DNA of 46,106 nucleotides. Source: a virus. The translations under genes and the position numbers were made by a program. Each line of letters opens with the position of its first letter. Position 1 is the first letter of the stretch. The notes under the pieces are model-generated. The model did no database searches. It was not told where the DNA came from and worked only from the letters and a program-made list of their open reading frames with translations. Positions 3,622 to 26,293 of the stretch are shown piece by piece. The stretch is from positions 1 to 46,106 of IMG/VR virus record IMGVR_UViG_3300023179_000178; one strand, given 5' to 3'.

Positions 3622-3882
3622 TTAAGCACCAAAGGACTCTAGAAGAGTATCTGGAGTCTTAGAAACATGGAGACGGTAAGCAGTTACCTTACGTCCACGA
3701 TTAACACCACCCTTCATCTTTACCTTATTGGTAAAGATAGGAAATCCAGCCTCACGAAGCTCAAAAATACGAGCAGCAAGACGCTTGATTCCATACTTAG
3801 TTCGAGCCTCGCTAACAGTAAGATTCTTACCACTAGATAGACGACGAACGAGCTTTACATTTTGCGACGTTGTGTTTGTCAT
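3622..3882 (-). CDS. small winged-helix/HTH protein (HTH_39-like)
   Basis: An 86-aa basic protein. Residues 12-48 (LSSGKNLTVSEARTKYGIKRLAARIFELREAGFPI, read in parts) match the pattern of the phage HTH_39 family: a first helix, a turn and a recognition helix around RLAARIFELR. A hairpin wing with the basic run TNKVKMKGGVNRGRKVTAYRL follows. It is predicted to bind DNA, and the target is unknown. It has its own near-consensus promoter (3907-3935) and an AGAGGA SD, and it sits just upstream of the gp45 palindrome, a candidate operator. It follows the terminator of the CobS-like gene. Confidence 0.75.
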   Translation of the reverse strand: MTNTTSQNVKLVRRLSSGKNLTVSEARTKYGIKRLAARIFELREAGFPIFTNKVKMKGGVNRGRKVTAYRLHVSKTPDTLLESFGA

Positions 3883-3986: not shown

Positions 3987-4019
3987 AAAAAAGCCCACTT
4001 TGTTTTTGGCAAAGTGGGC
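3987..4019 (-). terminator. rho-independent terminator after the CobS-like gene
   Basis: A perfect 10-bp stem (GCCCACTTTG, 3993-4002 with 4010-4019) and 7-base loop are followed on the minus strand by six T residues (A-run at 3987-3992). It separates the metallopeptidase/AAA+ cassette from the replication cluster. Confidence 0.9.
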
Positions 4020-4044: not shown

Positions 4045-5298
4045 TTATGATTGATTAGTCAAAATAGAAAGAATATCGTGTTCTTCCGCTTTTAACTCTT
4101 CACTCTCATTTACGGAATCTTGTTTTGAATCCATATCCACTGTTAAGTATGGATCTATGTTCTCATAGAAGTTCATAAATGAGATTTTGGTGCTTTCATC
4201 GAATCGTGCAATACACAACTCGATAGCTTGGCGGCGGCGGTCACCCACGGACTTTTTGTCACTCTCTTCTGGGTGTCCAAGAATTGCATAGGCATTTACA
4301 ATATGAACCAATCGACGGGTACTAATCAAGTCTGAAGTTCCACCAGTCTCAAAGGTCTTGCGAGTACCAAATGCCCAAGTAACCAGCTTGGAAATAAAAT
4401 CGTCAATAACATCGGATTTTAAATCGTGAGAGGCAAACAGCTTCTTGAGAATACTCTTTTCTACTCGCTCTTCTGGATACTTCTGCTCGAACGTAGCACA
4501 GAAACGCTCAAGAAAAGCCTCATTAAGAATGTTGGTTCCTACAAATTTACCAGTTTCAGAACCCTGACCCTTGGTGTTTGCGGTGGCCACAATAGTAAAA
4601 CCAGGAGCTGGCTTTACATACTGATTAATCTTCTTGAGAAGTATACCTTTACCCTCAAGAATTGGTTGCAAACAAAGTAGCTTGTTACTGCCAAGATCAA
4701 CTTCATCCAACAACAAAACACCACCAGAGCGCATAGCACGAATTACGGGACCATCGAACCATTTTGTGCTATCGTTTACAAGTCTGAATCCTCCTAGAAG
4801 ATCATCCTCGTCGGTTTCAATAGTGATGTTTACTCGAAACAATTCACGATTATGTTGAGCGCAGGCTTGCTCGACACCGAATGTTTTACCATTACCAGAA
4901 AGACCTGTGATGAACATTGGGTAAAACAATCGTGATGAAATAATCTTAGAGATTAAATCAAAGTCACCGTGTTTAACAAACAGCTTGTCAATCTCAGGAA
5001 CCAAACACTCACGATGGACCTCGCCTATAAAATTGTGTATAACCGCAGGTTCGGTTGATACAGAAGTAGGAGCTGGTGCAGGAACAGAAGTGCTATCAGT
5101 CATGACAGGCTTATTACTAGAAGGAACATGGTACTCACCACGAGATAACTTATACTCGCTAGAGTTTACAAACCAATTATAGTTAGTAAAATTATGCCGC
5201 TTGGTAAACTCAATCAACTCTTTTCGACGGAAAGGTGTGTTGCCGAATTTACTAGCCAAGGCATCAAGGAACTCTTTACGATTTTTATTGGTATTCAT
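4045..5298 (-). CDS. CobS/MoxR-like AAA+ ATPase
   Basis: A hexameric-type AAA+ ATPase of the CobS/MoxR/dynein-related branch (AAA_5), of the kind annotated cobS in T4-like marine phages. Walker A GLSGNGKT is at 132-139, with ETDEDDLLGG after it, Walker B VLLLDEVD at about 194-201, and sensor 1 around ATANT (239-242). Residues 1-58 form a small basic domain that may be a winged helix (PFRRKELIEFTKRHNF), followed by a Pro/Ser/Thr linker. CobS itself works with CobT and CobN to insert cobalt into corrin. No CobN is visible, and the VWA partner two genes upstream carries a metallopeptidase domain, so a MoxR-VWA remodelling pair is an equally good reading. It has its own sigma70-type promoter and terminator. 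Confidence 0.85.
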   Translation of the reverse strand: MNTNKNRKEFLDALASKFGNTPFRRKELIEFTKRHNFTNYNWFVNSSEYKLSRGEYHVPSSNKPVMTDSTSVPAPAPTSVSTEPAVIHNFIGEVHRECLVPEIDKLFVKHGDFDLISKIISSRLFYPMFITGLSGNGKTFGVEQACAQHNRELFRVNITIETDEDDLLGGFRLVNDSTKWFDGPVIRAMRSGGVLLLDEVDLGSNKLLCLQPILEGKGILLKKINQYVKPAPGFTIVATANTKGQGSETGKFVGTNILNEAFLERFCATFEQKYPEERVEKSILKKLFASHDLKSDVIDDFISKLVTWAFGTRKTFETGGTSDLISTRRLVHIVNAYAILGHPEESDKKSVGDRRRQAIELCIARFDESTKISFMNFYENIDPYLTVDMDSKQDSVNESEELKAEEHDILSILTNQS

Positions 5299-5334
5299 GA
5301 TATAATCCTCACAATAACTACATTATATAACTAT

Positions 5335-5363
5335 ATTTTACAGGAATCGGTCGAATATGTCAA
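5335..5363 (-). promoter_or_regulatory. sigma70-type promoter for the CobS-like gene
   Basis: A perfect TTGACA (5363-5358) and TAAAAT (5340-5335) are separated by 17 bases on the minus strand, about 37 bases before the ATG. The sequence context GTTGACAT is the same as in the promoter at 8206-8234, suggesting a shared early-promoter type. Confidence 0.8.
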
Positions 5364-5391
5364 CAAATATATTCAACGTAATATCAATAAC

Positions 5392-5964
5392 TTAGCGTTT
5401 TTCTAATTTCTCTTGTAACGCTCTAGGCATCAGCCCCTGAGGACATTCAACCGACTCGAATGTAAACTTACGATCACCCTTCATCTTAGTATAATACGTT
5501 CCTAGCTTCTGTGGCGTGAACCTACCAGCTACTACTTCTGTGTTAAGACCAGGCCATCTACCCGAAGCTGTGCCTATAAGAACACCCTTGTCTTTGGTTG
5601 CATCTTTATAAAAGATTGAGTCTTGATTGAACTTAACACCCATCTTAATAAGAAAATCTCGTAGTTTACCAGAATCGTTTGCCGACGACATGACCAAAAA
5701 GGACTTTTCCTGAACCTTTCGCTCGTCATCTTGACCCAGATTCTCAATGTAAAACCCAGTTACTTGAATGTAACCGAAACCTGCTTGACGTATTAGTGTA
5801 GCTAATTCCTTGTTTCTAGCTTCATTCTTTTTAACATCAAGCTCACCTCTATAAGCAGTAATCAGACCAATGTTTGATTCATTAGTATGCTGCCAAATAC
5901 GAGACAAGCTCTTTACGCTTGCCTCGTGAAGTAGCCTTTGTTTGAATGATTGAATGAGTCTCAT
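5392..5964 (-). CDS. DUF3293-like hypothetical protein
   Basis: A 190-aa protein. The arrangement GLITAYRGE ... NEARNKELATLIRQAGFGYIQVTGFY ... EKSFLV ... LRDFLIKMGVKFNQDSIFY resembles the DUF3293 fold pattern (TAYNP..., paired Glu/Asn, E-S-F-V, and a G..F.Q.A/SI motif). The second half (PGLNTEVVAGRFTPQKLG, YYTKMKGDRKFTFESV) is specific to phage versions. The biochemical role of DUF3293 is not established to my knowledge. It is sandwiched between the metallopeptidase-VWA gene (4-bp gap) and the CobS-like gene, so it probably works with them. The family call comes from motif reading only. Confidence 0.5.
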   Translation of the reverse strand: MRLIQSFKQRLLHEASVKSLSRIWQHTNESNIGLITAYRGELDVKKNEARNKELATLIRQAGFGYIQVTGFYIENLGQDDERKVQEKSFLVMSSANDSGKLRDFLIKMGVKFNQDSIFYKDATKDKGVLIGTASGRWPGLNTEVVAGRFTPQKLGTYYTKMKGDRKFTFESVECPQGLMPRALQEKLEKR

Positions 5965-5968
5965 ACTA

Positions 5969-8173
5969 CTATGATATATGATCTATAAAACGATTCAATA
6001 AGATTCTGTTTGTCATCTTCTGTTTCATAAAGTTACTAAAGTTTTTAGTAACAGCCTTTAAGGTCTTCTTAACTTGCTTTTGATCATCCCAATCTATAGT
6101 TGTATCAACATCACCTTCAAAGTCATCAGAGCCTATGCTAAGAGTATGACCAGCAGGAATCATATAATACGCATCATATCCAGAAACATTATTTAATTCA
6201 CAAAACTTATTGTTCTTAAAATTATCTAAGTGTTTATTTAGCTCCTTTGTGTTTGACTCTGTGCGTTCCAATATATAAGACAATTCTCGCTTCTTAATAA
6301 TATGAAAACCTATGACTTTCACACCATTGGTTTCTCGTAGTATGTTAAGCATATCTGCTGTGCAATTTTTAATCTGCCATTGTTTGCGAGTCTTGGAATC
6401 TCTAATATAATGGTTTAGTTTTGAAGCGTTCCAACCGAATCTTCTGCTAGTGCCTATATATTTTTCTTGACCAGTTCCATCGTTGCAAACAAGTCCGTGA
6501 GTATCTTCACCATCAGTTAAGAAAATGGTGTTTACAATATCTAATCTATACTTCTCACGAAACTCCTTAACAAGCTGTGTAGCAGCAAGGATTGCGGGAA
6601 CCATAGGAGTAGTGTTAAGAGTTTCCTGAGGAGGAACACCACCGTAATATTGTCCTGTGTAGTGTCTCATTATACAAATAATGTTTTTAAGAGCTACGTT
6701 AAACTCGTTTCCTGACATCGTATTGCTGAAATAGTGTCTAAGACAAAATGAATCATGAAACATCAACTCACCAGGAACTGAAGGGTGTTTCTGTAATCCT
6801 TGACGAGATGCATAAGCATCAGTAAATCCATAAACATCAAACGGTATATTCACACGACGACAAAATAGAACCAAGTTAAGCAACTGCTCATAGGTTCCGG
6901 CGATGTTCTCGGTCATGCTACTGCTCATATCAATGAACATGACTAAACCATGACTTTTACCCTGAGGAGTGATGGTTAGCTTTTTAAAGATATCATCATT
7001 ATAGCGATAAGAGTAAACCTTATTGGTGTCCAACTTACCAGTGCGAGAAGTAAGAGAGCGAACATCCAGTTTAGCCTTCTTTTTCATCTCAAAGAGATTA
7101 GCAAGCTGATTTACCGTATTCTTATTAACGTTCTTGAATCGCTCAACATCAGCTTGTAAATTATCGTATATCTGAGGATAGTGTTTAGAATAAAAATTGG
7201 TAATCTGTTGGTGAACCGTTTTGTAATCCACAACCAATTTATCTAACTGTATTTTAGGAACGTTGGCATAAAATGTTTCTAAAACGGACGTATCGACCAA
7301 TTTTTGAATCTCGGAATCAAAATGACTTTGTGTTTCCGAGAACACCTTTGGTCTTTCGGCGGATTCTGTTTCAGAACCTTCACCAGAATCATTATTGGTA
7401 GTGTTATCAGAGGATGTTTGATTGTTAGTTCCATTAGAGGAACTTTGCTGAACGTCATCAGATTTACCAAACTGTTCTGAAGATTGAGACTGTGAACCAC
7501 CTTGTTGCGAGGATGGTGAATTAGAAGAGTTGGACATATCCTTAGACTCAAGATTATCGGAAGAATTCTGCTCAGACTGAGCTTGCTTATCACCTTGAGA
7601 TTCTGGGTTTTCTTCTACAAATTGTTTTAATTCTGTAGCAATCTTAATTACATCAGAAAAGGTTTTGCATGCCGATATCTTGTCTAACCAAGGCATCTCG
7701 GCTTCACTAAAAGGAACCTTAGCATAACCAAAATGACCAATCTTAAAATGAAGATTAAGTCTATCTAAAAGACCATAAGATTCGATGTCACGATCTTTTG
7801 TACCAAACAAATTGGACTTCTCTAGCTCATTATAACCGGCACGAAAAGCACGAACGGTGCCTGGATATAAATTCTGAATCATCTTTTCGATGCGAACATC
7901 CTCGACAATGTTTACAACCTGTTTAAAATCTACGTTGGCATGTTTAATGATCTCCTTTTCCCATTCATCTTTAGGTGTATAGAGAGCGTGGCCTACCTCG
8001 TGAGAGATGAGAAGAGTATAAACATCATCAGATATATTTTTCCAGTTAGGAAGAAGTAACTTGCGGTTGATCAAATCAAAACCAGCCGTAGGAACATTGG
8101 CGTGTTCTACTAAGATATTTTCCTTAGCCATTAACTTGGCGAGTATCTCTTTTGAAGAAATTCTAGTTGACAT
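5969..8173 (-). CDS. zinc metallopeptidase-VWA protein (CobT-like)
   Basis: A 734-aa two-domain protein. The N-terminal half has a zinc-peptidase motif HEVGH at about residues 58-62, with NIVEDVRIEKMI some 30 residues later supplying a likely third metal ligand. A Ser/Asn/Gln/Asp-rich linker spans about 190-280. The C-terminal von Willebrand A domain has a complete MIDAS: D-x-S-x-S (FIDMSSSMT, near 415), a Thr in NTTPM (near 522) and TDGED (near 554). Such proteins pair with CobS/MoxR AAA+ ATPases and are often labelled cobT in phages. I chose the ATG at 8173 because GAGG lies 7-8 bases upstream; a GTG one codon earlier is less likely. It has its own promoter. A protein-processing role is inferred. 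Confidence 0.82.
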   Translation of the reverse strand: MSTRISSKEILAKLMAKENILVEHANVPTAGFDLINRKLLLPNWKNISDDVYTLLISHEVGHALYTPKDEWEKEIIKHANVDFKQVVNIVEDVRIEKMIQNLYPGTVRAFRAGYNELEKSNLFGTKDRDIESYGLLDRLNLHFKIGHFGYAKVPFSEAEMPWLDKISACKTFSDVIKIATELKQFVEENPESQGDKQAQSEQNSSDNLESKDMSNSSNSPSSQQGGSQSQSSEQFGKSDDVQQSSSNGTNNQTSSDNTTNNDSGEGSETESAERPKVFSETQSHFDSEIQKLVDTSVLETFYANVPKIQLDKLVVDYKTVHQQITNFYSKHYPQIYDNLQADVERFKNVNKNTVNQLANLFEMKKKAKLDVRSLTSRTGKLDTNKVYSYRYNDDIFKKLTITPQGKSHGLVMFIDMSSSMTENIAGTYEQLLNLVLFCRRVNIPFDVYGFTDAYASRQGLQKHPSVPGELMFHDSFCLRHYFSNTMSGNEFNVALKNIICIMRHYTGQYYGGVPPQETLNTTPMVPAILAATQLVKEFREKYRLDIVNTIFLTDGEDTHGLVCNDGTGQEKYIGTSRRFGWNASKLNHYIRDSKTRKQWQIKNCTADMLNILRETNGVKVIGFHIIKKRELSYILERTESNTKELNKHLDNFKNNKFCELNNVSGYDAYYMIPAGHTLSIGSDDFEGDVDTTIDWDDQKQVKKTLKAVTKNFSNFMKQKMTNRILLNRFIDHIS

Positions 8174-8205
8174 CACAACACCTCATCATAATAACTTACA
8201 TAATA

Positions 8206-8234
8206 AGTATATCAAATGATGGAAACAATGTCAA
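8206..8234 (-). promoter_or_regulatory. sigma70-type promoter for the metallopeptidase-VWA gene
   Basis: A perfect TTGACA (8234-8229) and TATACT (8211-8206) with a 17-base spacer lie in the only sizeable gap of this region, about 33 bases before the ATG. It marks the start of the VWA-DUF3293-CobS unit. Confidence 0.8.
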
Positions 8235-8256: not shown

Positions 8257-8529
8257 CTATTTGTTTTTATTAGGTTTTTTATACTTTAAGTAAAGTAAAA
8301 TGTTCGTTCCAACTAGCATGGTGTTAAATGTATAATTGAAAAGCAAAGGAGCTTGGGCTGTAGTAAAGAATACATATATCCCCATAAACGCACAACCAAA
8401 ACCCCAAAGTAAAAGAGTCACTAGAGATAGACCTGTAACATCTTTTTTTCTTAGTGTAGTAATCAACTGAGGTGCTGAGGAAAAGGCCAACAGAATTGCT
8501 CCTATATGACCTATTATATTGACTAACAT
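8257..8529 (-). CDS. SemiSWEET-type PQ-loop membrane protein
   Basis: A 90-aa triple-helix membrane protein. Helices are at about 3-24, 36-55 and 61-83. The signature PQ sits at residues 20-21 (SSAPQLITTLRKKDVTGLS), with the charged loop and GLSL motif that follow it in SemiSWEET sugar transporters, and an Asn in helix 3 (LFNYTFN) at the usual substrate-binding position. Bacterial SemiSWEETs are about 90-100 aa and work as dimers passing mono- or disaccharides across the inner membrane. The ATG overlaps the stop of the glycosyltransferase gene, so the two are co-translated. A sugar supply role next to a glycosyltransferase is inference; another small substrate is possible. Confidence 0.82.
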   Translation of the reverse strand: MLVNIIGHIGAILLAFSSAPQLITTLRKKDVTGLSLVTLLLWGFGCAFMGIYVFFTTAQAPLLFNYTFNTMLVGTNILLYLKYKKPNKNK

Positions 8530-9476
8530 GATTCAAAAACTGATAAAAATTCCTGTCTTAAATTTTGCTTCTCTCGTTCTATATCTCGCACAACATTAGA
8601 AAAATATCTGTCTCTAATCGTAAGATTGGTAGATATCTCATTCATTTTATCGTTAAGCTCTATTTTATCAGACACAAAAAAGTAATCTTCTATGTTGTAA
8701 CCAGACATAGTAACATTTTTGATACAATTTCTATCAAAAAATAATACCACCCCGTTACTAACACACTCATAAAATCTGTCAGCCAAGTGACTATATCGAT
8801 CTTGATGTATTCGCTTATCTTCTACATACACAGAAAACTTAACTCTATTAAGCGTAGAATCGTTTCTGCCCCATACCAACTTATCAACAAATCGTGCGGA
8901 TAGCCCATTCATTTTAAATCTAGTTACATTTTTAGCACTTGTGCTTACAATGGCATTTTGATAATATTCGTTTATATATTGCTGTCGATCTGGACGAAAC
9001 ATACCATAATACATTAGTTCATATGGGCGTGTCTCAAATGGTTTTTGATTTATTTCATCTCTATATGCAGTTACATTCATGTTTAACACATGAATCTTTT
9101 TTGATGTGGTTAAAACGTCCTTTCCATGCCCATCTTTTAAATTTGTAATTACTTCATATCCTCTTTTATGAAAATATTTGGCTATAGAAGAGTTCAAGGA
9201 TAATGCATATTCATTATACAACCAATACAACTTGGCATTTGGATGTTTCTTCATCACTGTGATAATTTCATCAAACTTTGCATAGTACGAGGAATAGAAG
9301 TAAACTATTGCATCAATATTTCTGTGACAATCGGCTTTTACATAATCTTCATATTGAAGCAGTTCACAACCAGGAACATTATTGCAGATCCATCTGACAA
9401 TACGATAACACGCCATTAAATTTTTAGAGCTTAAATGATGACTGTATGGACCTATAAACAACACTCGCTTTAGCAT
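8523..9476 (-). CDS. GT-B glycosyltransferase resembling T4 beta-glucosyltransferase
   Basis: A 317-aa protein. The N-terminal half has a Rossmann-like start (KRVLFIGPYS) and alternating strands. The middle PYELMYYGMFRPDRQQYI parallels T4 BGT (DVIYGGSFRSGQRES). The C-terminal HLADRFYECVSNGVVLFFDRN followed by DYFFVSDKIELNDKMNEI parallels BGT TLRVWETMASDAVMLIDEE and FYVNNRAELIDRVNEL. BGT transfers glucose from UDP-glucose to hydroxymethylcytosine in DNA. The similarity is recognisable but distant, so the acceptor could be another modified base or a glycan. The gene overlaps both neighbours (246-aa protein and PQ-loop protein), forming one translation unit. Confidence 0.6.
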   Translation of the reverse strand: MLKRVLFIGPYSHHLSSKNLMACYRIVRWICNNVPGCELLQYEDYVKADCHRNIDAIVYFYSSYYAKFDEIITVMKKHPNAKLYWLYNEYALSLNSSIAKYFHKRGYEVITNLKDGHGKDVLTTSKKIHVLNMNVTAYRDEINQKPFETRPYELMYYGMFRPDRQQYINEYYQNAIVSTSAKNVTRFKMNGLSARFVDKLVWGRNDSTLNRVKFSVYVEDKRIHQDRYSHLADRFYECVSNGVVLFFDRNCIKNVTMSGYNIEDYFFVSDKIELNDKMNEISTNLTIRDRYFSNVVRDIEREKQNLRQEFLSVFESC

Positions 9477-10210
9477 GGAATTATTTTCTCTAGTTTATTG
9501 AAGTTTATTCTGGTTGTTTTGATCTTGTCTTTATTAATTTTAAAATAGTCCAGCACTGTATTCATTTGATCTATACTATCGCATTTGATAGTAAAATCTG
9601 GATAGGTCTTACTTCTAAAGAATCTTTCATTTACATCATCAACTTCAAATGGGCTTGATATTTTGTTTGCAATTCTATTAAAATCGTTGTATGAGATTTC
9701 ATTTTCATTGGTCTTAAAAAACTTTTGTGTGCGAAAGTTTTGCTCAAGAGTTTTTAAAACTATAGTGACACTAAATTGCTTTTTAATTTTAACAACTTCT
9801 TCTTGTATTTCTTTAACGTCCAAATTTACATCGTCTAAGTCAACCAAATACATAAGATCTAATTGATTGCAATCAAACTCACAATTATCAACTTCTGTAG
9901 GTTGATTATACTTCTTTTTAATTTTATGATACAGCAAAGTTACATTTGACTGTATATTAGACATATACAGATCAAACTTTTCATCGTATTCTCCTGGTAC
10001 TAATATAGCAAGACACTCTTGCGTATTAGTTTTAACTAAAGAATGATAAACTGAAAGACTCACTCCATATAGCTTTTTATCAGTCTCGCTGACATAAACT
10101 GGAGTGTTTTGTAAATATGTACTGTTTTCGATTAAAGTTAAATAATGAAAACAGCTATCATCATGTTCTGATACATCAATATCAGACACTTTAATCTTTA
10201 CACAATTCAT
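9470..10210 (-). CDS. unknown 246-aa protein
   Basis: I do not recognise this protein. It is soluble in appearance, with no membrane segment, and rich in Asp, Asn and Lys. Two regions look like alpha/beta repeats: residues about 28-150, and a C-terminal part with ERFFRSKTYPDFTIKCDSIDQMNTVLDYF. The YPDFTIKCDS..D segment suggests a ferredoxin-like or RNA-binding strand-helix unit, but this is only pattern reading. It starts 2 bases after the ClpP-like gene and overlaps the glycosyltransferase start, so it belongs to the same operon. Confidence 0.7.
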   Translation of the reverse strand: MNCVKIKVSDIDVSEHDDSCFHYLTLIENSTYLQNTPVYVSETDKKLYGVSLSVYHSLVKTNTQECLAILVPGEYDEKFDLYMSNIQSNVTLLYHKIKKKYNQPTEVDNCEFDCNQLDLMYLVDLDDVNLDVKEIQEEVVKIKKQFSVTIVLKTLEQNFRTQKFFKTNENEISYNDFNRIANKISSPFEVDDVNERFFRSKTYPDFTIKCDSIDQMNTVLDYFKINKDKIKTTRINFNKLEKIIPC

Positions 10211-10211
10211 A

Positions 10212-10844
10212 TTACTTCACTTTCTTTGCTTTCTTGTTTTTCTTTTCCTTGTTTTGAGGAATCTGTTTTATTGCAAATGATTTTACCACATCCACATTAA
10301 ACAAAGAATCAATTACTGGTAATCCAATATGATCTGCTAATCCTAGTTTGAGAACCTCTTTTGAGTCCAAATACCAATTAACGTGCTTTTTCTCGGCAAC
10401 TAATTTTTGAAAAAATCCTTTGGGTTTTCCACAAGATTCATTTAACATTTCAAAAATTTTGATATTCAATCTTTCTGCTTCTCCAACATCAGCTTTAAGT
10501 TCTTCAATTTTTCCAAATGATACTGTAGCTGCATCGTGAACCATTACTGTAGAATTACTTCCCACAAATCTAAGACTTTTAGACCCTCCGCAGGCCAGTA
10601 ATATACTACCACAACTCATAGCCTTTCCAAGAGCCACCGTAGCCACAGGCTTTGTTGCGGTAGAAATTATATCCAACATAGCAAGAAGAGAATATATTTC
10701 TCCACCATAGCTATCAATAAAAATAGGAATTATGGGCAAAGCACTATTATTTAAATCATCAAAATCTACTTTAAAATTTTTGACACCATATTCAGAAAAT
10801 TCGTTGACGAGGATGGCGTTTTTTATTTTAGGGTCTGCACTCAT
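10212..10844 (-). CDS. ClpP-like serine protease with Asp-to-Asn change
   Basis: A 210-aa protein of the ClpP/crotonase fold. PIFIDSYGGEI (about 40-50) corresponds to ClpP YINSPGG. GKAMSCGSILLACG contains the nucleophile Ser77. RFVGSNSTVMVHDA contains the catalytic His103. NWYLDSKEVLKLGLADHIG aligns with DRFLSAPEAVEYGLVDSIL, placing Asn156 where ClpP has its catalytic Asp. The Lys-rich tail replaces the usual end. I chose the second ATG (10844), which has an AGAGG SD 6 bases upstream; the first ATG at 10871 has none. It is separate from the prohead protease gp21 (22501-23160), so it is not obviously a head-maturation enzyme. It follows gp46 in the recombination operon. Confidence 0.85.
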   Translation of the reverse strand: MSADPKIKNAILVNEFSEYGVKNFKVDFDDLNNSALPIIPIFIDSYGGEIYSLLAMLDIISTATKPVATVALGKAMSCGSILLACGGSKSLRFVGSNSTVMVHDAATVSFGKIEELKADVGEAERLNIKIFEMLNESCGKPKGFFQKLVAEKKHVNWYLDSKEVLKLGLADHIGLPVIDSLFNVDVVKSFAIKQIPQNKEKKNKKAKKVK

Positions 10845-10873
10845 AATATTCCTCTCAATGCAACAAGACATAA

Positions 10874-12586: not shown

Positions 12587-13668
12587 CAGCTATTACTTTG
12601 AATATGCTCATTACTATTTAATGCTTCGATATAAAGCTCTCGAAGCAAATCATTCAAGGCATTTTTATGCTCATCTACATTTAGCGTATCAACACATTCT
12701 TTTAATATTGTAAGAGTATCTTTGGCCTGATCAATATCATCCTGATCTGAAAGTCCATTTTCAAATGCAGACTCAATCACCGAAATATCTGCTGGATTAT
12801 TTTTTTGTAGATTCTCAAAGTATTGATCAAACCAATAGGGATTATTTTTCTTTTGAACTATGACCTTTACAAACTTACCGGCAATATCTGAATGATTCTT
12901 GTTCATCAGTGAATCATATGTTTCATCAGTATCGTTGTAGTAAATTTTATGAAACATCTGAATTGGGTTTTCTATAAACTGCAATTCTAGTGTTTCAGTA
13001 TCCAATACATGAAAACCCTTTGCTGAGCCATAGTCACCCCACATCATAGCATAAGGAGCACCAAGATAATGAATATTGCTCATTGATGATTTTTGGTGAA
13101 AATGTCCTGTAAGAGTCATATAATACTTGTCGAACATATCACTGCGGTAGCCATGATTAGTATTAATATGTCCTGCATACATCTCAAAACCTATTAGCTC
13201 AAGATGTCCTGCACATATATGCGCTTTAGACTCTTCAATCATCTTAAAGGACTGCTCTTGATTGTCCTCACAGATCCAAGGTACATATAAAAACTTTCTA
13301 CCTGCAATATCGGCTTCCGTAGGCTCTACAAATATATTGAACTTGGGGTAAATCTTTAGTAGCTCTTCTACACTATTAACTTTGTTGGTATTCTTGTAGT
13401 AAGTGTCGTGATTACCAATTAGTATATCAACACGATCACACCAATCATGCAGCGGTTTAAACACACGATTTTGCCAAGCATGTAGTGTACTAAAATTAAT
13501 GTACTTGCGACGGTCAAACGTATCACCTAAATGCAACACAGTTTTTATATCATGTTGCTTTAGATAAGGAAAAAATACGTCCTCATAGAATTTTAAAAAA
13601 AATTCGTTGAGATTTTGATTGTCGTTACCGGCACCACAATGGGTGTCGGTTATAATAGCAACTTTCAT
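12586..13668 (-). CDS. 47: recombination endonuclease subunit gp47 (Mre11/SbcD-like)
   Basis: The metal-dependent nuclease partner of gp46. The calcineurin-like phosphoesterase motifs are all present in order: DTH at 8-10, GDTFDRR at 48-54, GNHD at 85-88, GHLE at 154-157 and GHFH at 188-191. The length (360 aa) is close to T4 gp47 (339 aa). The start overlaps the stop of the small RHH candidate (TAATG). The complete active site predicts a functional Mn-dependent exonuclease and endonuclease. Confidence 0.97.
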   Translation of the reverse strand: MKVAIITDTHCGAGNDNQNLNEFFLKFYEDVFFPYLKQHDIKTVLHLGDTFDRRKYINFSTLHAWQNRVFKPLHDWCDRVDILIGNHDTYYKNTNKVNSVEELLKIYPKFNIFVEPTEADIAGRKFLYVPWICEDNQEQSFKMIEESKAHICAGHLELIGFEMYAGHINTNHGYRSDMFDKYYMTLTGHFHQKSSMSNIHYLGAPYAMMWGDYGSAKGFHVLDTETLELQFIENPIQMFHKIYYNDTDETYDSLMNKNHSDIAGKFVKVIVQKKNNPYWFDQYFENLQKNNPADISVIESAFENGLSDQDDIDQAKDTLTILKECVDTLNVDEHKNALNDLLRELYIEALNSNEHIQSNS

Positions 13669-13934
13669 TAAACCTTATAGCCTTCGCTCTCAAGTTTTCG
13701 TCTGAGAATATGACGAACGGCATCTCCTATAGAAACAAATTTTCCTTCTTTTACCAAAGAAGTTAAATCATCTAGCACATCAGATTCCAAATCAAGAGAA
13801 ACTTCTACAGAATTATCCGAAATCTTTTCGTATGTGCTACCATTTACTGTAATATAATCGGGGTTTATTTTCTTTTTGGTAGGTTTTACAGTCTTTTTGT
13901 TTTTTACCATAATCAAGTATCTGTTGGACTCCAT
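13668..13934 (-). CDS. ribbon-helix-helix-like small protein
   Basis: An 88-aa protein with a Lys-rich N-terminal tail. Residues about 42-84 look like a CopG/RHH DNA-binding fold: a strand VEVSLDL, helix VLDDLTSLVKEG, then a second helix SIGDAVRHILRRKLE. The pattern D..L..LVKEG.F.SI.DAVR.IL matches many RHH proteins. The start is uncertain: an ATG at 13934 overlaps the upstream gene by 22 bases, while another at 13910 sits 2 bases after that gene's TGA; neither has a convincing SD. It precedes gp47 (TAATG). A repressor or clamp-associated role is possible. Confidence 0.68.
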   Translation of the reverse strand: MESNRYLIMVKNKKTVKPTKKKINPDYITVNGSTYEKISDNSVEVSLDLESDVLDDLTSLVKEGKFVSIGDAVRHILRRKLESEGYKV

Positions 13935-14239
13935 CCACCATTGGATGTAGTCGTATTTGTTACATACAATATACTATACAGTGAATCGATTGTGGCTTCA
14001 AGATTTTTTCCGCTATTTTTATATTCTCTGATAACATCCAAAACTTTATCGGTAACATTCGTAGGTGGCACTAACTTTAAATCATCTAGTAATTTGGCAT
14101 ACACATCTTTGGAAGTATGTGTTCTGGTTTGGCAGTGATGATATAAACTATCCAATATTGCCTGTTTTTTAATTTGCTCGCTCATAGCAGGATCAAAGTC
14201 AGGATCATTCCATATACGTTTTACAAAACCAAATGTCAT
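13913..14239 (-). CDS. hypothetical protein between gp55 and gp47
   Basis: A 108-aa protein of unknown function. It is mostly helical in appearance, with QIKKQAILDSLYHHCQ and KLLDDLKLVPP...DKVLDVIREYKNSGKNLEATIDSLYSIL, and ends in a Thr/Asn/Gly-rich tail. The start overlaps the gp55 stop as ATGA and its own stop overlaps the next gene, so it is part of a continuous translation unit. No similarity to gp33, the co-activator expected near gp55 in function, is apparent. Confidence 0.7.
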   Translation of the reverse strand: MTFGFVKRIWNDPDFDPAMSEQIKKQAILDSLYHHCQTRTHTSKDVYAKLLDDLKLVPPTNVTDKVLDVIREYKNSGKNLEATIDSLYSILYVTNTTTSNGGWSPTDT

Positions 14240-14826
14240 TGTTCAGGTATATCATCGTACTGATCAAACATTTCGTCAAAATCACGCTTTTTATTTTTGC
14301 GCTTTTTGCTGTTTTCTTTGGCTTTCTTTTTCTTGTTTTCTTTACTTTTTTCAAACTTTTCTACGAACTCATACATGTTTAGATCCGCTTGATCGCTACC
14401 GTATTTGGTGTTTTGTAAGTGTTCGCTGTCAGCTACATCATGTATTAAATTTTCTGCAATTAGACGATACTTGGTATATAGTTGCTTTTTTTCTCTTTCT
14501 ATTCTACGCACAAAAGCAAAGTATATAATTTGAGTAAAGTAAGCAAATGGATTTTTACTTTTCTTAGGATCAAAGTTGTTTATATACTGCAAACTGTTTT
14601 CAACACCGTCACTAATCATTTCTTCACGAAATGGATAATTCATAAAGTTGGGTTTATTAGCCAACTTGTTAGCAATAGACAATATACACTCACCAATATA
14701 ATTAGTAACCTGTGGCAATGGTTCTTTAGATCGCTTTGCTTTCTTGACAGCAGCGATATATTCTTTCATTTCTTTGTAAAATTCTGCATTATTGACGTAG
14801 TGCAGCTTTTTCTCATTTTCGTCCAT
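14236..14826 (-). CDS. 55: late-transcription sigma factor gp55
   Basis: gp55 replaces sigma70 on host RNA polymerase and recognises the TATAAATA-type late promoters. The match to T4 gp55 is clear: YVNNAEF near the start, FREEMISDGVENSLQYINNFDPKKSKNPFAYFTQIIYFAFVRRIEREKKQ (read in parts), then KKY-like and a charged linker. The C-terminal DFDEMFDQYDD resembles the hydrophobic-acidic clamp-binding tail of T4 gp55. I use the ATG at 14826 (196 aa); a GTG six codons upstream is possible. A Lys-rich insertion (KKKAKENSKKRKNKKR) before the tail is longer than in T4. Its predicted targets are listed as promoters in this window. Confidence 0.93.
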   Translation of the reverse strand: MDENEKKLHYVNNAEFYKEMKEYIAAVKKAKRSKEPLPQVTNYIGECILSIANKLANKPNFMNYPFREEMISDGVENSLQYINNFDPKKSKNPFAYFTQIIYFAFVRRIEREKKQLYTKYRLIAENLIHDVADSEHLQNTKYGSDQADLNMYEFVEKFEKSKENKKKKAKENSKKRKNKKRDFDEMFDQYDDIPEQ

Positions 14827-15152
14827 ATAAAGATGATAGCACACAATAATTCTTTTACAAGAAATTATTAAAATTTTTTAATGATTTTTGAGGCCTTGGT
14901 CTGATAGGAGATAAAAATCTTATTATGTCCTATAGTGCTATTAAAAGATATAAAGATTATAAAAAGTCTTATGCGAAGGCACTACAAGCCTATATATACA
15001 ACCAGAATCAAAAAAAACAAGAAAACCAAAACCAATCAAAAAAAAGTTAATAGGATGCAAAAATAGTTTAACCTATAGCTGTGTATAGAACAGCGATTCC
15101 TATTGATTTTTGACTTGGTAGGCTACTGAAATCGTTATGCTTTAGGAAGCGT
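14827..15152 (-). other. 326-bp region without a minus-strand gene
   Basis: The longest stretch in the window without a minus-strand gene. On the plus strand it holds a 41-codon ORF (14925-15050). A weak 5-bp hairpin (15078-15094, GCTGT/ACAGC) follows. On the minus strand I see a TATAAT (about 14960) without a good -35. There is no tRNA and no T-tract terminator. It separates the uvsW/Sm-like unit from gp55 and may contain the gp55 promoter. Confidence 0.5.
14925..15050 (+). CDS. possible plus-strand microprotein (41 aa)
   Basis: A 41-codon ORF opposite to all other genes, placed in the largest gene-free gap. The product is strongly basic and Tyr/Lys-rich at first (YKDYKKSYAKALQAYIY), likely an amphipathic helix, and then Gln/Asn/Lys-rich. 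A GGAG at 14907-14910 is 14 bases before the ATG, too far for a standard SD. No promoter is evident on the plus strand. It could equally be chance in AT-rich DNA. Confidence 0.28.
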   Translation: MSYSAIKRYKDYKKSYAKALQAYIYNQNQKKQENQNQSKKS

Positions 15153-18296: not shown

Positions 18297-18866
18297 CTAT
18301 ACAACAAGTTTCTCAACTGTAAAATAATCATATTTAAAACTAACCGACGCTGTTACATATAAAACATCCGTTTCTCGGGTATCAAAGACCATTTCACCAA
18401 GACTAACTGGATGCAAGTCAACAAAAGTGATCTTTAATATAGGATTATTCTGACTGGTGTTTATTAGTAATGTGCCTTGTCCATATATCGCACCGTGTGT
18501 TCTTTGTGGTAGTGGACGTTTTGATACAACACCATTTAAATCTGGAGTTAAACCTTCTTTCATTTTACCATACTGCTCTATACTTTCAGGGAAACCAATA
18601 CCTTGCATCCAAGAAAAGATTTCATACCAGTTGTATAGACCCTCACTGACCTTGAAATCAACTGACAGTTCACCAAATTCTAAGTGATCTCCCGTATATT
18701 GTATCTTTGCAAACGGCGTGGCGCTACCATTAACCGCTACAGGAATATTTAAATCGGGAATATTAATTTTTTGTACAAAGTAATTAAAGTCGGTAAGTTT
18801 ATCGACTCGAAATTCAAAATTAAGAGGTGATTGAAAATTTCGATTTTCAACATCTGTTATTGGCAT
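18297..18866 (-). CDS. tail-tube-like virion protein
   Basis: A 189-aa protein with the layout of the gp19/gp54 tail-tube superfamily: PLNFEFRVDKL, FVQKINIPDLNIP, then HLEFGELSVDFKVSEGLYNWYEIFSWMQGIGFPES (read in parts), and a C-terminal YVTASVSFKYDYF that parallels the gp19 end FNYDYW. It is distinct from the two gp19 copies at 25044-26293. Similar proteins occur next to gp23 in marine T4-like phages. It could be a baseplate tube initiator or cap protein, but that is inference. Its expression after the gp23 terminator relies on its own promoter (18898-18905). Confidence 0.65.
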   Translation of the reverse strand: MPITDVENRNFQSPLNFEFRVDKLTDFNYFVQKINIPDLNIPVAVNGSATPFAKIQYTGDHLEFGELSVDFKVSEGLYNWYEIFSWMQGIGFPESIEQYGKMKEGLTPDLNGVVSKRPLPQRTHGAIYGQGTLLINTSQNNPILKITFVDLHPVSLGEMVFDTRETDVLYVTASVSFKYDYFTVEKLVV

Positions 18867-22500: not shown

Positions 22501-23160
22501 CTACTTTTTCTCTAGCTTCTTAATGAAATTTTCAAATGCTTTAACGCTAACTTCTTTGATCTTTTTTGCAGGAGCTTTCATTATGGTTTTCTTATACTCG
22601 TGTATGTCTTTTTCAAGTAATATACCATTATGCCAAACCCACTCTTTGCCTTCCATGATACCGTTTACAAAAGCATCCGGAGCAGACGGATCAGCCACAA
22701 TATCTGCTGCGGTGGCAAGATAAAAATCATCCTGTACAATTTGCACGTCATGTCCTTCTGTTTTGATCGAGCCCATTCCACGACTCGATACACCCAACCT
22801 CGCTCCTTCATCTATTAATGCCTTTACGATATTACCATTTGGTGTACTAAGTATCTTTGCTTTACCAATAAAGTTGGCTCCTTCAGCACGAAGATCTGTG
22901 ATCATGTGTGAAACTCGATCAAGATTGATTGTGGGTCCATCTGGATGTCCTAATTCTCCAAACGCTCGCTTCTTATCAACGTACTCGCTCACATATCTGG
23001 TAATTTCACGATCAAGCATTTCTTGTGGATACATTCTGCCGTTCCTATTTTTTAGTTCGGCTTGCATGAATACGCCTTCAATAAAGTAATTTTTTTGTGC
23101 ATTATCGGCACCTTCTTTAATTACTTTGATCTCTTCTGTGACTTCGCAAATAAGTTTCAT
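22501..23160 (-). CDS. 21: prohead core protease gp21
   Basis: The protease that matures the prohead by cutting gp23, gp22 and core proteins. The 219-aa product shows FIEGVFMQAELKNRNGRMYP, then AFGELGHPDGPTINLDRVSHMI, which carries the catalytic His of the herpesvirus-like (S78/U9) prohead protease fold, and LGVSSRGMGSI, containing the catalytic Ser. I use the ATG at 23160 because marine T4-like homologues begin MKLI.E; an in-frame ATG at 23187 lies within the preceding gene and lacks an SD. It follows the gp67-like gene, as in T4. Confidence 0.94.
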   Translation of the reverse strand: MKLICEVTEEIKVIKEGADNAQKNYFIEGVFMQAELKNRNGRMYPQEMLDREITRYVSEYVDKKRAFGELGHPDGPTINLDRVSHMITDLRAEGANFIGKAKILSTPNGNIVKALIDEGARLGVSSRGMGSIKTEGHDVQIVQDDFYLATAADIVADPSAPDAFVNGIMEGKEWVWHNGILLEKDIHEYKKTIMKAPAKKIKEVSVKAFENFIKKLEKK

Positions 23161-23164
23161 TTGA

Positions 23165-23347
23165 TTACTTTGTCTTTGTAGCGTCATTAATTATAGACTT
23201 GGCCATTTCCTTTTCCTTCTTATCAATAGCTCTGCGAACTTTGGAAAGAAGTGCTTCTTTGATGTTCTTTTTCATCAGTACAGCATTACCCTTGGAAATA
23301 GCATTAAGAGCCTTTTCAACTAAACTTTTTTCTTTGGATTTTGACAT
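23165..23347 (-). CDS. gp67-like small prohead core protein
   Basis: A 60-aa Lys-rich helical protein in the T4 position of gene 67 (between 20 and 21). A faint pattern match exists with T4 gp67: KGNAVLMKKNIKEALLSK...KKEKEMAKSII against SNDLVAARKLFAEAMAAR...KEEKIAIARNFL. The acidic C-terminal tail of T4 gp67 is missing. gp67 is a prohead core protein needed for correct head shape. The late box AATAAATA (23367-23374) lies upstream. Confidence 0.6.
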   Translation of the reverse strand: MSKSKEKSLVEKALNAISKGNAVLMKKNIKEALLSKVRRAIDKKEKEMAKSIINDATKTK

Positions 23348-25043: not shown

Positions 25044-25616
25044 CTATCCTGCATCCCAATAATCATATCTAAGTGTTACTGAAAACTCTTCAATAGTATT
25101 TTCATTATCCCAAGAAAGTTCGGTGCTGGATATTTCTGTTGGAAATAAATTGTTTAGCACATAGACTCGTATTAAATTGCCTTTTTGTCCAAAGTGTCTA
25201 ACAACACCAGTTTGTTGATATGTATCAGGAGAAGATGTAACACCATTTTTAAAGTTACTGGCATGTCCATTCATAGCAGACAACCAATGTTCAAAGGACT
25301 TTCTAACACTAAAATCTTCATCATTAATTACTGTTATTGTCCAAGGCTCAAATGTTCTGGATCCAACACAACTAACTTTTCTTCCCATGTATGGTATTTC
25401 TATCACACCTACAGAACTGCCTGGTATAGAAGTTGCTTTACACAAAAAGGTTAATTTTTCTTGAGATGTTGTTAGACCTAGTGGTGTAACATCCAAAATA
25501 TCACTGGTGGTAGTCAATATGCTTGGTGGTAAAGTTATTTGCACCTCAAATAGTGATGATCTGGCACCACCTTTTGATAACGCATTTGATTTGAATTTGT
25601 CTATGTTAAAAGCCAT
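25044..25616 (-). CDS. 19: tail-tube protein gp19, second copy
   Basis: A 190-aa paralogue of the neighbouring gp19. Shared landmarks are MAFNI..FK, GGARSSLF.VQ, CKATSIP, GRK, RTFEPW.ITVINDEDF, EHW..A.NGH, NENTIEEF.VT and a YDYW end. Roughly half of the residues agree between copies. gp19 stacks as hexamer rings to make the inner tube. T4 has one copy; here two adjacent genes with separate late boxes suggest either a minor tube component or a specialised ring. Which copy makes the bulk tube cannot be told from sequence. Confidence 0.92.
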   Translation of the reverse strand: MAFNIDKFKSNALSKGGARSSLFEVQITLPPSILTTTSDILDVTPLGLTTSQEKLTFLCKATSIPGSSVGVIEIPYMGRKVSCVGSRTFEPWTITVINDEDFSVRKSFEHWLSAMNGHASNFKNGVTSSPDTYQQTGVVRHFGQKGNLIRVYVLNNLFPTEISSTELSWDNENTIEEFSVTLRYDYWDAG

Positions 25617-25687: not shown

Positions 25688-26293
25688 TTAGAGAACTCCA
25701 AGATCAGCCGAAGCATCAATTTCCCAGTAATCATAGTTAAATGTTACTGTAAACTCTTCGATAGTGTTTTCATTTTCCCATGCAAGCTCAATATTTGAAA
25801 GCTCAGTTGGGAAAATATTAACAAACTTATATGCACGAATAGCAAACTGCTCAGGACCTTTGCTAAACTGTCGCACAATAGCTGTAGTCTGATAATCTGC
25901 AGGACGTGAAGTAACGCCTGAGTTGTTGATGTTAGTTGAATGTCCGTTGATAGAAGCCATCCAATGTTCCATGGTCTTACGAATCATAAAATCTTCATCG
26001 TTGATTACAGTAATAGACCAAGGCTCAAATGTTCTGGCTCCAGCAACCTTAGTCTTACGTCCAAAGTATGGAACATCGATTGCAGTCACGGTGCTAGGTG
26101 GAATAGAAGTTGCTTTACACATGAAAGCAATCTTTCTCTCTACAACTGGTGCAGGAAGTCCCGCAGCATCAATAACACCATTATCTGTAGGATCGGACAA
26201 GTTTTGTGGAAGATTCAGTTGTACTTGAAAGAGTGACGAACGTGCACCACCATAAGTGAGCTGATTCTTAAATTGATTGATGTTAAATGCCAT
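25688..26293 (-). CDS. 19: tail-tube protein gp19, first copy
   Basis: Tail-tube subunit, directly after the sheath gene as in T4. The 201-aa product has MAFNINQFKNQLTYGGARSSLFQVQLNLP (read in parts), FMCKATSIPPSTV, GARTFEPWSITVINDEDF, MEHWMASINGH and NENTIEEFTVTFNYDYWE. T4 gp19 is 163 aa; the insertion near residues 30-50 (DPTDNGVIDAAGLPAP) is typical of marine relatives. The late box CATAAATA overlaps the gp18 stop just upstream. A second paralogue follows at 25044-25616. Confidence 0.95.
   Translation of the reverse strand: MAFNINQFKNQLTYGGARSSLFQVQLNLPQNLSDPTDNGVIDAAGLPAPVVERKIAFMCKATSIPPSTVTAIDVPYFGRKTKVAGARTFEPWSITVINDEDFMIRKTMEHWMASINGHSTNINNSGVTSRPADYQTTAIVRQFSKGPEQFAIRAYKFVNIFPTELSNIELAWENENTIEEFTVTFNYDYWEIDASADLGVL

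Follow-up and report, generated by a model that had tools for sequence, protein, structure and literature searches.

We analysed a three-gene locus in IMG/VR virus record IMGVR_UViG_3300023179_000178, a metagenomic fragment of 46 kb (positions 1 to 46,106; the whole stretch is hereafter called the window). The locus encodes a MoxR-type AAA+ ATPase, a small middle protein and a VWA-domain protein with a predicted zinc-protease-like domain at its N-terminus. A first-pass annotation made from the letters alone had described three minus-strand open reading frames (4045-5298, 5392-5964 and 5969-8176), near-consensus sigma70-type promoters in GTTGACAT context for the two outer genes and a strong terminator closing the unit, and each of these was found as described. 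PHROG matches mark the window as a fragment of a T4-like myovirus, with gp44 clamp loader, gp45 clamp, gp46/gp47 recombination nuclease, late sigma factor gp55, a UvsW-like helicase and UvsY on the replication and transcription side, and gp23, gp22, gp21, gp20, tail tube, sheath and large terminase from the T4 structural set. The minus strand carries all assigned genes of the window; the three genes sit in the replication cluster, flanked by gp46/gp47 on one side and gp45/gp44 on the other. The features of the locus are as follows.

3993-4019, minus: intrinsic terminator, a 10-bp perfect stem plus T-run, closing the unit just beyond the annotated range 4045-8234
4045-5298, minus: MoxR/CobS/midasin-type AAA+ ATPase, 417 residues, ATG start (phrog_249, E 1.5e-106; AAA_5)
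4702-4716, minus: Walker B, residues 195-199 (LLLDE); L197, D198 and E199 invariant in 171/171 homologues
4882-4905, minus: Walker A, residues 132-139; G132, G137, K138 and T139 invariant in 171/171 homologues
5335-5363, minus: sigma70-type promoter of the AAA+ gene, TTGACA-17-TAAAAT, 11/12 consensus, 37 nucleotides (nt) upstream of the ATG
5392-5964, minus: very probable S-adenosylmethionine (SAM) lyase, 190 residues (Pfam PF23780, S-AdoMet_lyase, E 3.7e-13)
5617-5757, minus: predicted SAM lyase active-site positions G70, Y72, E86 and Q114-D115-S116 (conservation and match to Svi3-3)
5969-8176, minus: VWA protein, 735 residues, GTG start; N-terminal zincin-like domain, low-complexity linker and C-terminal MIDAS-VWA
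6512-6514, minus: MIDAS D555
6608-6610, minus: MIDAS T523
6917-6931, minus: MIDAS DxSxS, residues 416-420 (D416, S418, S420), from conservation
7355-7588, minus: Ser/Gln/Asn-rich disordered linker, residues 197-274 (predicted local distance difference test, pLDDT, <50 in the model)
7601-8176, minus: N-terminal domain, residues 1-192, predicted minigluzincin/ArdC-like fold (structure model)
7901-7903, minus: E92, probable third ligand (conservation)
7988-8002, minus: HEVGH, putative zinc-binding/catalytic motif, residues 59-63 (HExxH conservation)
8206-8234, minus: sigma70-type promoter of the VWA gene, TTGACA-17-TATACT, 11/12 consensus, 30 nt upstream of the GTG start

An ancient AAA+/VWA gene pair

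The VWA protein matches phrog_459 (E 5e-186), and relatives were found in 463 phage records (E ≤1e-3), mostly with Synechococcus or Prochlorococcus hosts and usually annotated 'peptidase'. Both motifs that had been read from its sequence, HEVGH and a full MIDAS, proved invariant: no homologue that reaches this position lacks HExxH (150/150), and the five MIDAS residues are kept in 151/151, as are N89, E92, D93 and R95. Residue E92 lies 29 residues past H63 in the next long helix and is plausibly the third zinc ligand. Neither the protein sequence nor its profile gave a significant PDB match, and the N-domain matched no Pfam family. Folded alone with AlphaFold, the N-domain reached a pLDDT of 90 and a predicted template modelling score (pTM) of 0.85, and its top eight Foldseek matches in the PDB were all zincin-type (selecase, jannalysin, abylysin, ArdC), each of them non-significant (E 0.08-0.36). 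Foldseek placed the AlphaFold model of the VWA domain nearest to NorD as found in NorQD (E 9e-5) and to the MIDAS domain of midasin. PDB matches of the AAA+ protein were to midasin modules (closest), CobS, NorQ and CbbQ, and on its sequence it is a MoxR-clade ATPase of the CobS/NorQ/CbbQ/midasin group. The earlier proposal of a MoxR/CobS-like ATPase with a MIDAS-VWA partner bearing an N-terminal zinc-peptidase-like domain is thus upheld by the PDB and fold matches and by the N-domain model. None of the three proteins had a PADLOC match.

We then compared gene order across loci gathered by pattern scans, which favour close relatives; several loci are near duplicates, and the fractions given here are not population frequencies. 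In the VWA-seeded set the AAA+ gene lay downstream on the same strand in 75/80 loci; of the remaining five, four are cut off by the contig end 0-242 nt from the VWA gene, and in L078 another 2.1 kb follow, in which the bases next to VWA are undetermined. Conversely, AAA+-seeded loci carried the VWA gene in 65/80 cases, the others having less than 1.2 kb (13 loci) or 1.2-1.6 kb (2 loci) of upstream sequence, and no exception to the strand or order of the pair was seen among all loci. The frame gp47-gp46-VWA-AAA-gp45-gp44 recurs in cyanophages, in Pelagibacter phage Mosig and in phage contigs inside metagenome-assembled genomes (MAGs). Candidate cellular homologues of the pair, 12 contigs from a genome-contig scan, were rejected as such, since nearly all have adjoining T4-type replication genes and represent phage DNA binned with a host. 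The AAA+ and VWA genes are a very old gene pair of T4-like phages. The pair has already been published for phages (PMC7824862; PMC8651126), and our additions are a corrected identity for the middle gene and evidence on timing.

A probable SAM lyase as separate cargo

The middle protein had been called DUF3293-like. It falls below the threshold of that family (23.4 bits, cut-off 25) and passes that of PF23780 (50 bits, cut-off 28), and the middle gene very probably encodes a SAM lyase, an enzyme that would destroy SAM, the methyl donor for bacterial restriction defences. Residues G70, E86, Q114 and D115 are kept in 75/75 homologues, and Y72 and S116 in 71/75. The active site of Svi3-3 consists of G56, Y58, E69 and Q104-E105-S106 (PMC7877911), to which G70, Y72, E86 and Q114-D115-S116 of the middle protein correspond. 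A profile of seven relatives also found the T3 SAM lyase in the PDB (7ock, E 0.0042), and in the same alignment E86 falls on the second of its paired glutamates, E68, which is needed in vivo (PMC7877911).

The middle gene starts 4 nt after the VWA gene in the window and overlaps it in L003, and its distribution differs from that of the pair. It was present in only three loci of the VWA-seeded set (L002, L003, L004) and lay between the outer genes in 32/179 of all fetched loci that have both, a count that includes loci fetched via the SAM lyase itself. In the sister phage L099, whose AAA+ protein is 78% identical, the VWA and AAA+ genes are 102 nt apart with no intervening gene, and SAM lyase genes often occur in loci that lack the pair. 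Mapped on the AAA+ tree, the middle gene switches between present and absent at least 7 times; on the SAM lyase tree, whose long branches leave the details unsure, copies from the VWA-AAA gap belong to at least two clades that lie well apart, separated by free-standing copies. By these sequence comparisons the middle gene is mobile cargo that entered the gap on more than one occasion. Routine separation of the three genes, which the first-pass annotation had set against its own cassette, is therefore what we find for the middle gene and not for the outer two, which stay linked.

The length of the VWA-AAA gap is highly variable and the gap seems to be a hot spot for inserted genes. In L003, two open reading frames of no assigned function (13130-14930) are inserted between the SAM lyase and AAA+ genes.

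Promoters and expression timing

A consensus promoter scan was rejected as evidence by itself, its counts matching shuffles: 52 raw sites were found in 12 kb against 46.5 expected, and 3 sites of at least 11/12 in the whole window against 2.6 expected. Our case for the promoters therefore relies on their position and conservation. Upstream of the AAA+ gene, TTGACA-18-TATACT (11/12) occupies the same place in L002, L003, L004 and L082, and an 11/12 site upstream of the VWA gene is present in L082 and absent from L003 and L004. Across relatives, a strong sigma70-type site was found in 16/130 upstream regions of VWA and 24/173 of AAA+, against about 0.4 expected for each from shuffles. The terminator recurs 26-32 nt past the AAA+ stop in L099, L002 and L082, where the stem sequences differ yet still pair; no perfect-stem terminator was found past the AAA+ gene in L003, L181, L182 or L184.

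All 13 copies of the T4 late promoter motif NATAAATA in the window are on the minus (coding) strand (e.g. 28362, 25028, 21693, 20408), with none on the plus strand. Most copies lie 20-61 nt upstream of genes, chiefly structural ones such as those for sheath, tail tube, portal, scaffold, capsid and fibre, and none is near the VWA, middle or AAA+ gene. Across relatives NATAAATA was not enriched upstream of VWA (3 vs 7 expected) or AAA+ (15 vs 10.4). Since the promoters are sigma70-type and not T4-late, in the window as in relatives, the pair is, on sequence evidence, probably expressed early, in agreement with the early timing first proposed. A literature search on transcriptome timing of cobS returned no paper naming the gene. 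As a side result, the distribution of NATAAATA is a clean late-gene map for an uncultured phage.

Upstream of SAM lyase genes the picture is the opposite: NATAAATA was found in 28/72 cases against 3.1 expected, mostly 10-35 nt from the start, and sigma70-type sites were not seen there in relatives. The late motif at 10-35 nt belongs to copies outside the window's clade (e.g. L185, L197, L217, L230, L252); within that clade there is none, except at 57 nt in L003 and L004. Because the late motif is missing in this clade and the gene begins 4 nt after VWA, transcription of the window's SAM lyase gene probably starts at the VWA promoter. For many relatives outside the clade, the motif suggests late synthesis and possible packaging of the enzyme. 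In S-CREM2 a SAM hydrolase homologue was listed among virion-associated proteins by mass spectrometry, with its authors asking for verification (PMC10665884).

Several neighbouring genes were also noted. A ClpP-like serine protease gene (10212-10871, minus; Clp protease E 3e-21) lies between gp46 and VWA, at the same position in the close relatives L003, L004, L082, L099 and L181, and was not detected in more distant pairs. Immediately upstream of the VWA promoter is a short PQ-loop membrane protein gene (8257-8529, minus; PF04193, E 1e-11), with like genes at the equivalent place in L082 and L099, and further upstream lie a glycosyltransferase-like gene (8523-9476) and a gene of no assigned function (9470-10210). 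The corresponding place in L082 (5563-7206) and L099 (5636-7342) holds a gene for a protein of about 550 residues, the L082 copy of which has a TSPPYF motif resembling those of DNA methyltransferases. Between AAA+ and gp45, a small winged-helix protein (3622-3882, minus; HTH_39, E 4e-13) is conserved in L002, L003, L082 and L099. Elsewhere, the window has two tandem tail-tube genes (gp19-type, phrog_45; 25044-25616 and 25688-26293, minus) and a third, more distant one at 18297-18866.

Function of the pair and relation to known systems

We favour the reading that the operon holds two separate devices, an early AAA+/VWA-protease remodelling machine and a SAM lyase carried as cargo, and give it a probability of about 0.58. 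Early in infection the phage would make the AAA+ ring and the VWA protein, whose MIDAS may contact the ring or the substrate, by analogy with NorQD and midasin. The ring would pull the target open, and the zinc-protease domain, tethered by the flexible linker, would cut it; the target could belong to the host or to the replication or transcription machinery encoded beside the pair. The SAM lyase would act alone, converting SAM to methylthioadenosine and homoserine lactone as expected from its family, and depletion of SAM would starve SAM-dependent defences such as type I and III restriction-modification and BREX.

The pair's architecture, linkage, residue conservation, fold models and promoter type are observed, and from these we infer complex formation and docking, zinc chemistry, proteolysis and a target. 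Four points weigh against this account. The PDB E-values of the N-domain are all 0.08 or higher, so that the zincin call, made on a model, draws on the agreement of the top matches together with the motif. Glutamate E105 of Svi3-3 is replaced by aspartate in the middle protein. A strong sigma70 site occurs in a minority of upstream regions (12-14%), and timing is unproven for most relatives. Lastly, the role that Iyer et al. (PMC7824862) propose for what is apparently the same kind of pair is virion assembly. The invariant HExxH, the lack of CobN in 15 records and the early-type promoters favour remodelling and proteolysis over both cobalt insertion and late virion assembly.

A bolder version of this reading is rather doubtful: the core gene pair of oceanic T4-like phages, long catalogued under cobalamin biosynthesis, would be an early AAA+/VWA machine feeding one specific host protein to its tethered zinc protease. 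As an independent matter, many relatives would make their adjacent SAM lyases late, carry them in the virion and deliver them with the DNA against SAM-dependent defences.

In a rival reading that we hold unlikely, the pair would act as chaperone and cochaperone, together with a maturation protease, and help structural proteins to fold and be processed (PMC7824862). MoxR-VWA pairs do act elsewhere as assembly chaperones (PMC7159879), one such pair serves tail formation in Acidianus two-tailed virus, and proteases serve phage head maturation. Against this, the pair is located in the replication and not the structural cluster, the window already has a gp21-type head protease (22501-23187), and the sigma70-type promoters, in place of late ones, in the window and in relatives are evidence against assembly late in infection.

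We regard as similarly improbable a midasin-like job on the phage's own gp46/47 or clamp and clamp-loader assemblies. The constant position between gp47-gp46 and gp45-gp44, the midasin modules as closest PDB relatives of the AAA+ protein and the early-type promoters would all fit such a role. The argument is one of gene neighbourhood, however, and by itself leaves the invariant protease site unexplained; T4-type phages that lack the pair also replicate.

That the two proteins are CobS and CobT, borrowing a host CobN to insert cobalt and raise the cobalamin supply, appears highly improbable. A cobalamin role was proposed for phage and archaeal-virus cobST, with the cyanophage 'peptidase' label taken as a mistaken annotation of cobT (PMC8651126). 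In its favour, the AAA+ protein matches TIGR01650 CobS and solved CobS chains, VWA proteins labelled CobT in other phages have the same N-fold, and one of 58 relatives matches the CobT family (PF06213) weakly (E 0.0026). However, the TIGR01650 score (E 1e-18, 67.6 bits) is far below the equivalog cut-off of 558.55, and the window VWA protein itself does not match PF06213. CobN was looked for in 15 phage or phage-bearing records and not found in any; several of these are whole genomes of phages, and the window record is itself a fragment. This agrees with the earlier argument against cobalt insertion. We also compared 24 cellular CobT proteins, sampled from the phylum of a Porticoccaceae MAG. 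These have a common E-x-A-R-x-E-A helix that aligns with E92-D93-V-R95-I-E97 of the phage protein, yet none (0/24) has HExxH at the aligned place, and hhalign of the phage VWA family against cellular CobT gave a probability of 4%, too weak to establish homology. An HExxH in the CobT frame of L273 was rejected as an equivalent site, as it lies at position 31 of a 750-long open frame, far ahead of the E-x-A-R helix at 209. The invariance of HExxH in the phage family therefore supports the metallopeptidase reading (PMC7824862) over that of PMC8651126.

Finally, there is almost nothing to recommend the first-pass idea of a single cassette with the middle protein as adaptor or substrate of the machine: the 4-nt spacing, the overlap in L003 and the presence in the gap of copies from at least two distinct SAM-lyase clades would suit it, but the protein has a complete SAM lyase active site, a PF23780 assignment and a T3 profile match, and its gene is missing from most pairs including that of L099, is often free-standing and in relatives is preceded by the opposite type of promoter.

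The literature offers two conflicting readings of the pair (PMC8651126 vs PMC7824862), and the intact protease site, absent from cellular CobT, together with the lack of CobN in the records searched and the early-type promoters, points away from both published functional proposals. This bears on annotation, as cobS is listed among the core genes of marine T4-like cyanophages (PMC3037559) and has been treated as an auxiliary vitamin-B12 gene (e.g. PMC10665884); databases misname the pair as vitamin-B12 genes. Its function can be tested in culturable phage-host pairs. The middle gene, in turn, passes from an unknown-function label to a defined enzyme, and SAM lyases are seen to move within T4-like replication clusters.

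Set beside known systems, the window proteins match PHROG families 249 and 459, and the closest published counterpart is the jumbo-phage MoxR AAA+ and vWA pair with an N-terminal metallopeptidase that Iyer et al. 2021 described (PMC7824862). Judged by that description, the two are alike in the pairing of genes and in domain architecture; the window differs in coming from a T4-like phage, in its evidence for early and not late expression, and in its inserted SAM lyase. NorQ/NorD, CbbQ and midasin supply the best solved AAA+ relatives, and NorD and midasin the best fold matches of the VWA domain, to which the phage VWA protein adds a predicted zinc-protease domain. Cobaltochelatase CobS/CobT has in common with the pair the CobS-type AAA+ fold and a VWA partner with MIDAS; unlike it, the phage AAA+ protein is far below the CobS cut-off, the phage HExxH is intact and CobN was not found in the records searched. 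Minigluzincins such as selecase and the ArdC antirestriction protein share HExxH plus a downstream Glu and are the best, though non-significant, fold matches of the N-domain, which in the phage is fused to VWA and paired with an AAA+ ring. The middle protein has the G-x-Y...E...Q-(E/D)-S active site common to phage SAM lyases (T3 SAMase, Svi3-3, PF23780), and its match to PF23780 covers residues 34-162 of 190, so that the window protein has extra residues at both ends.

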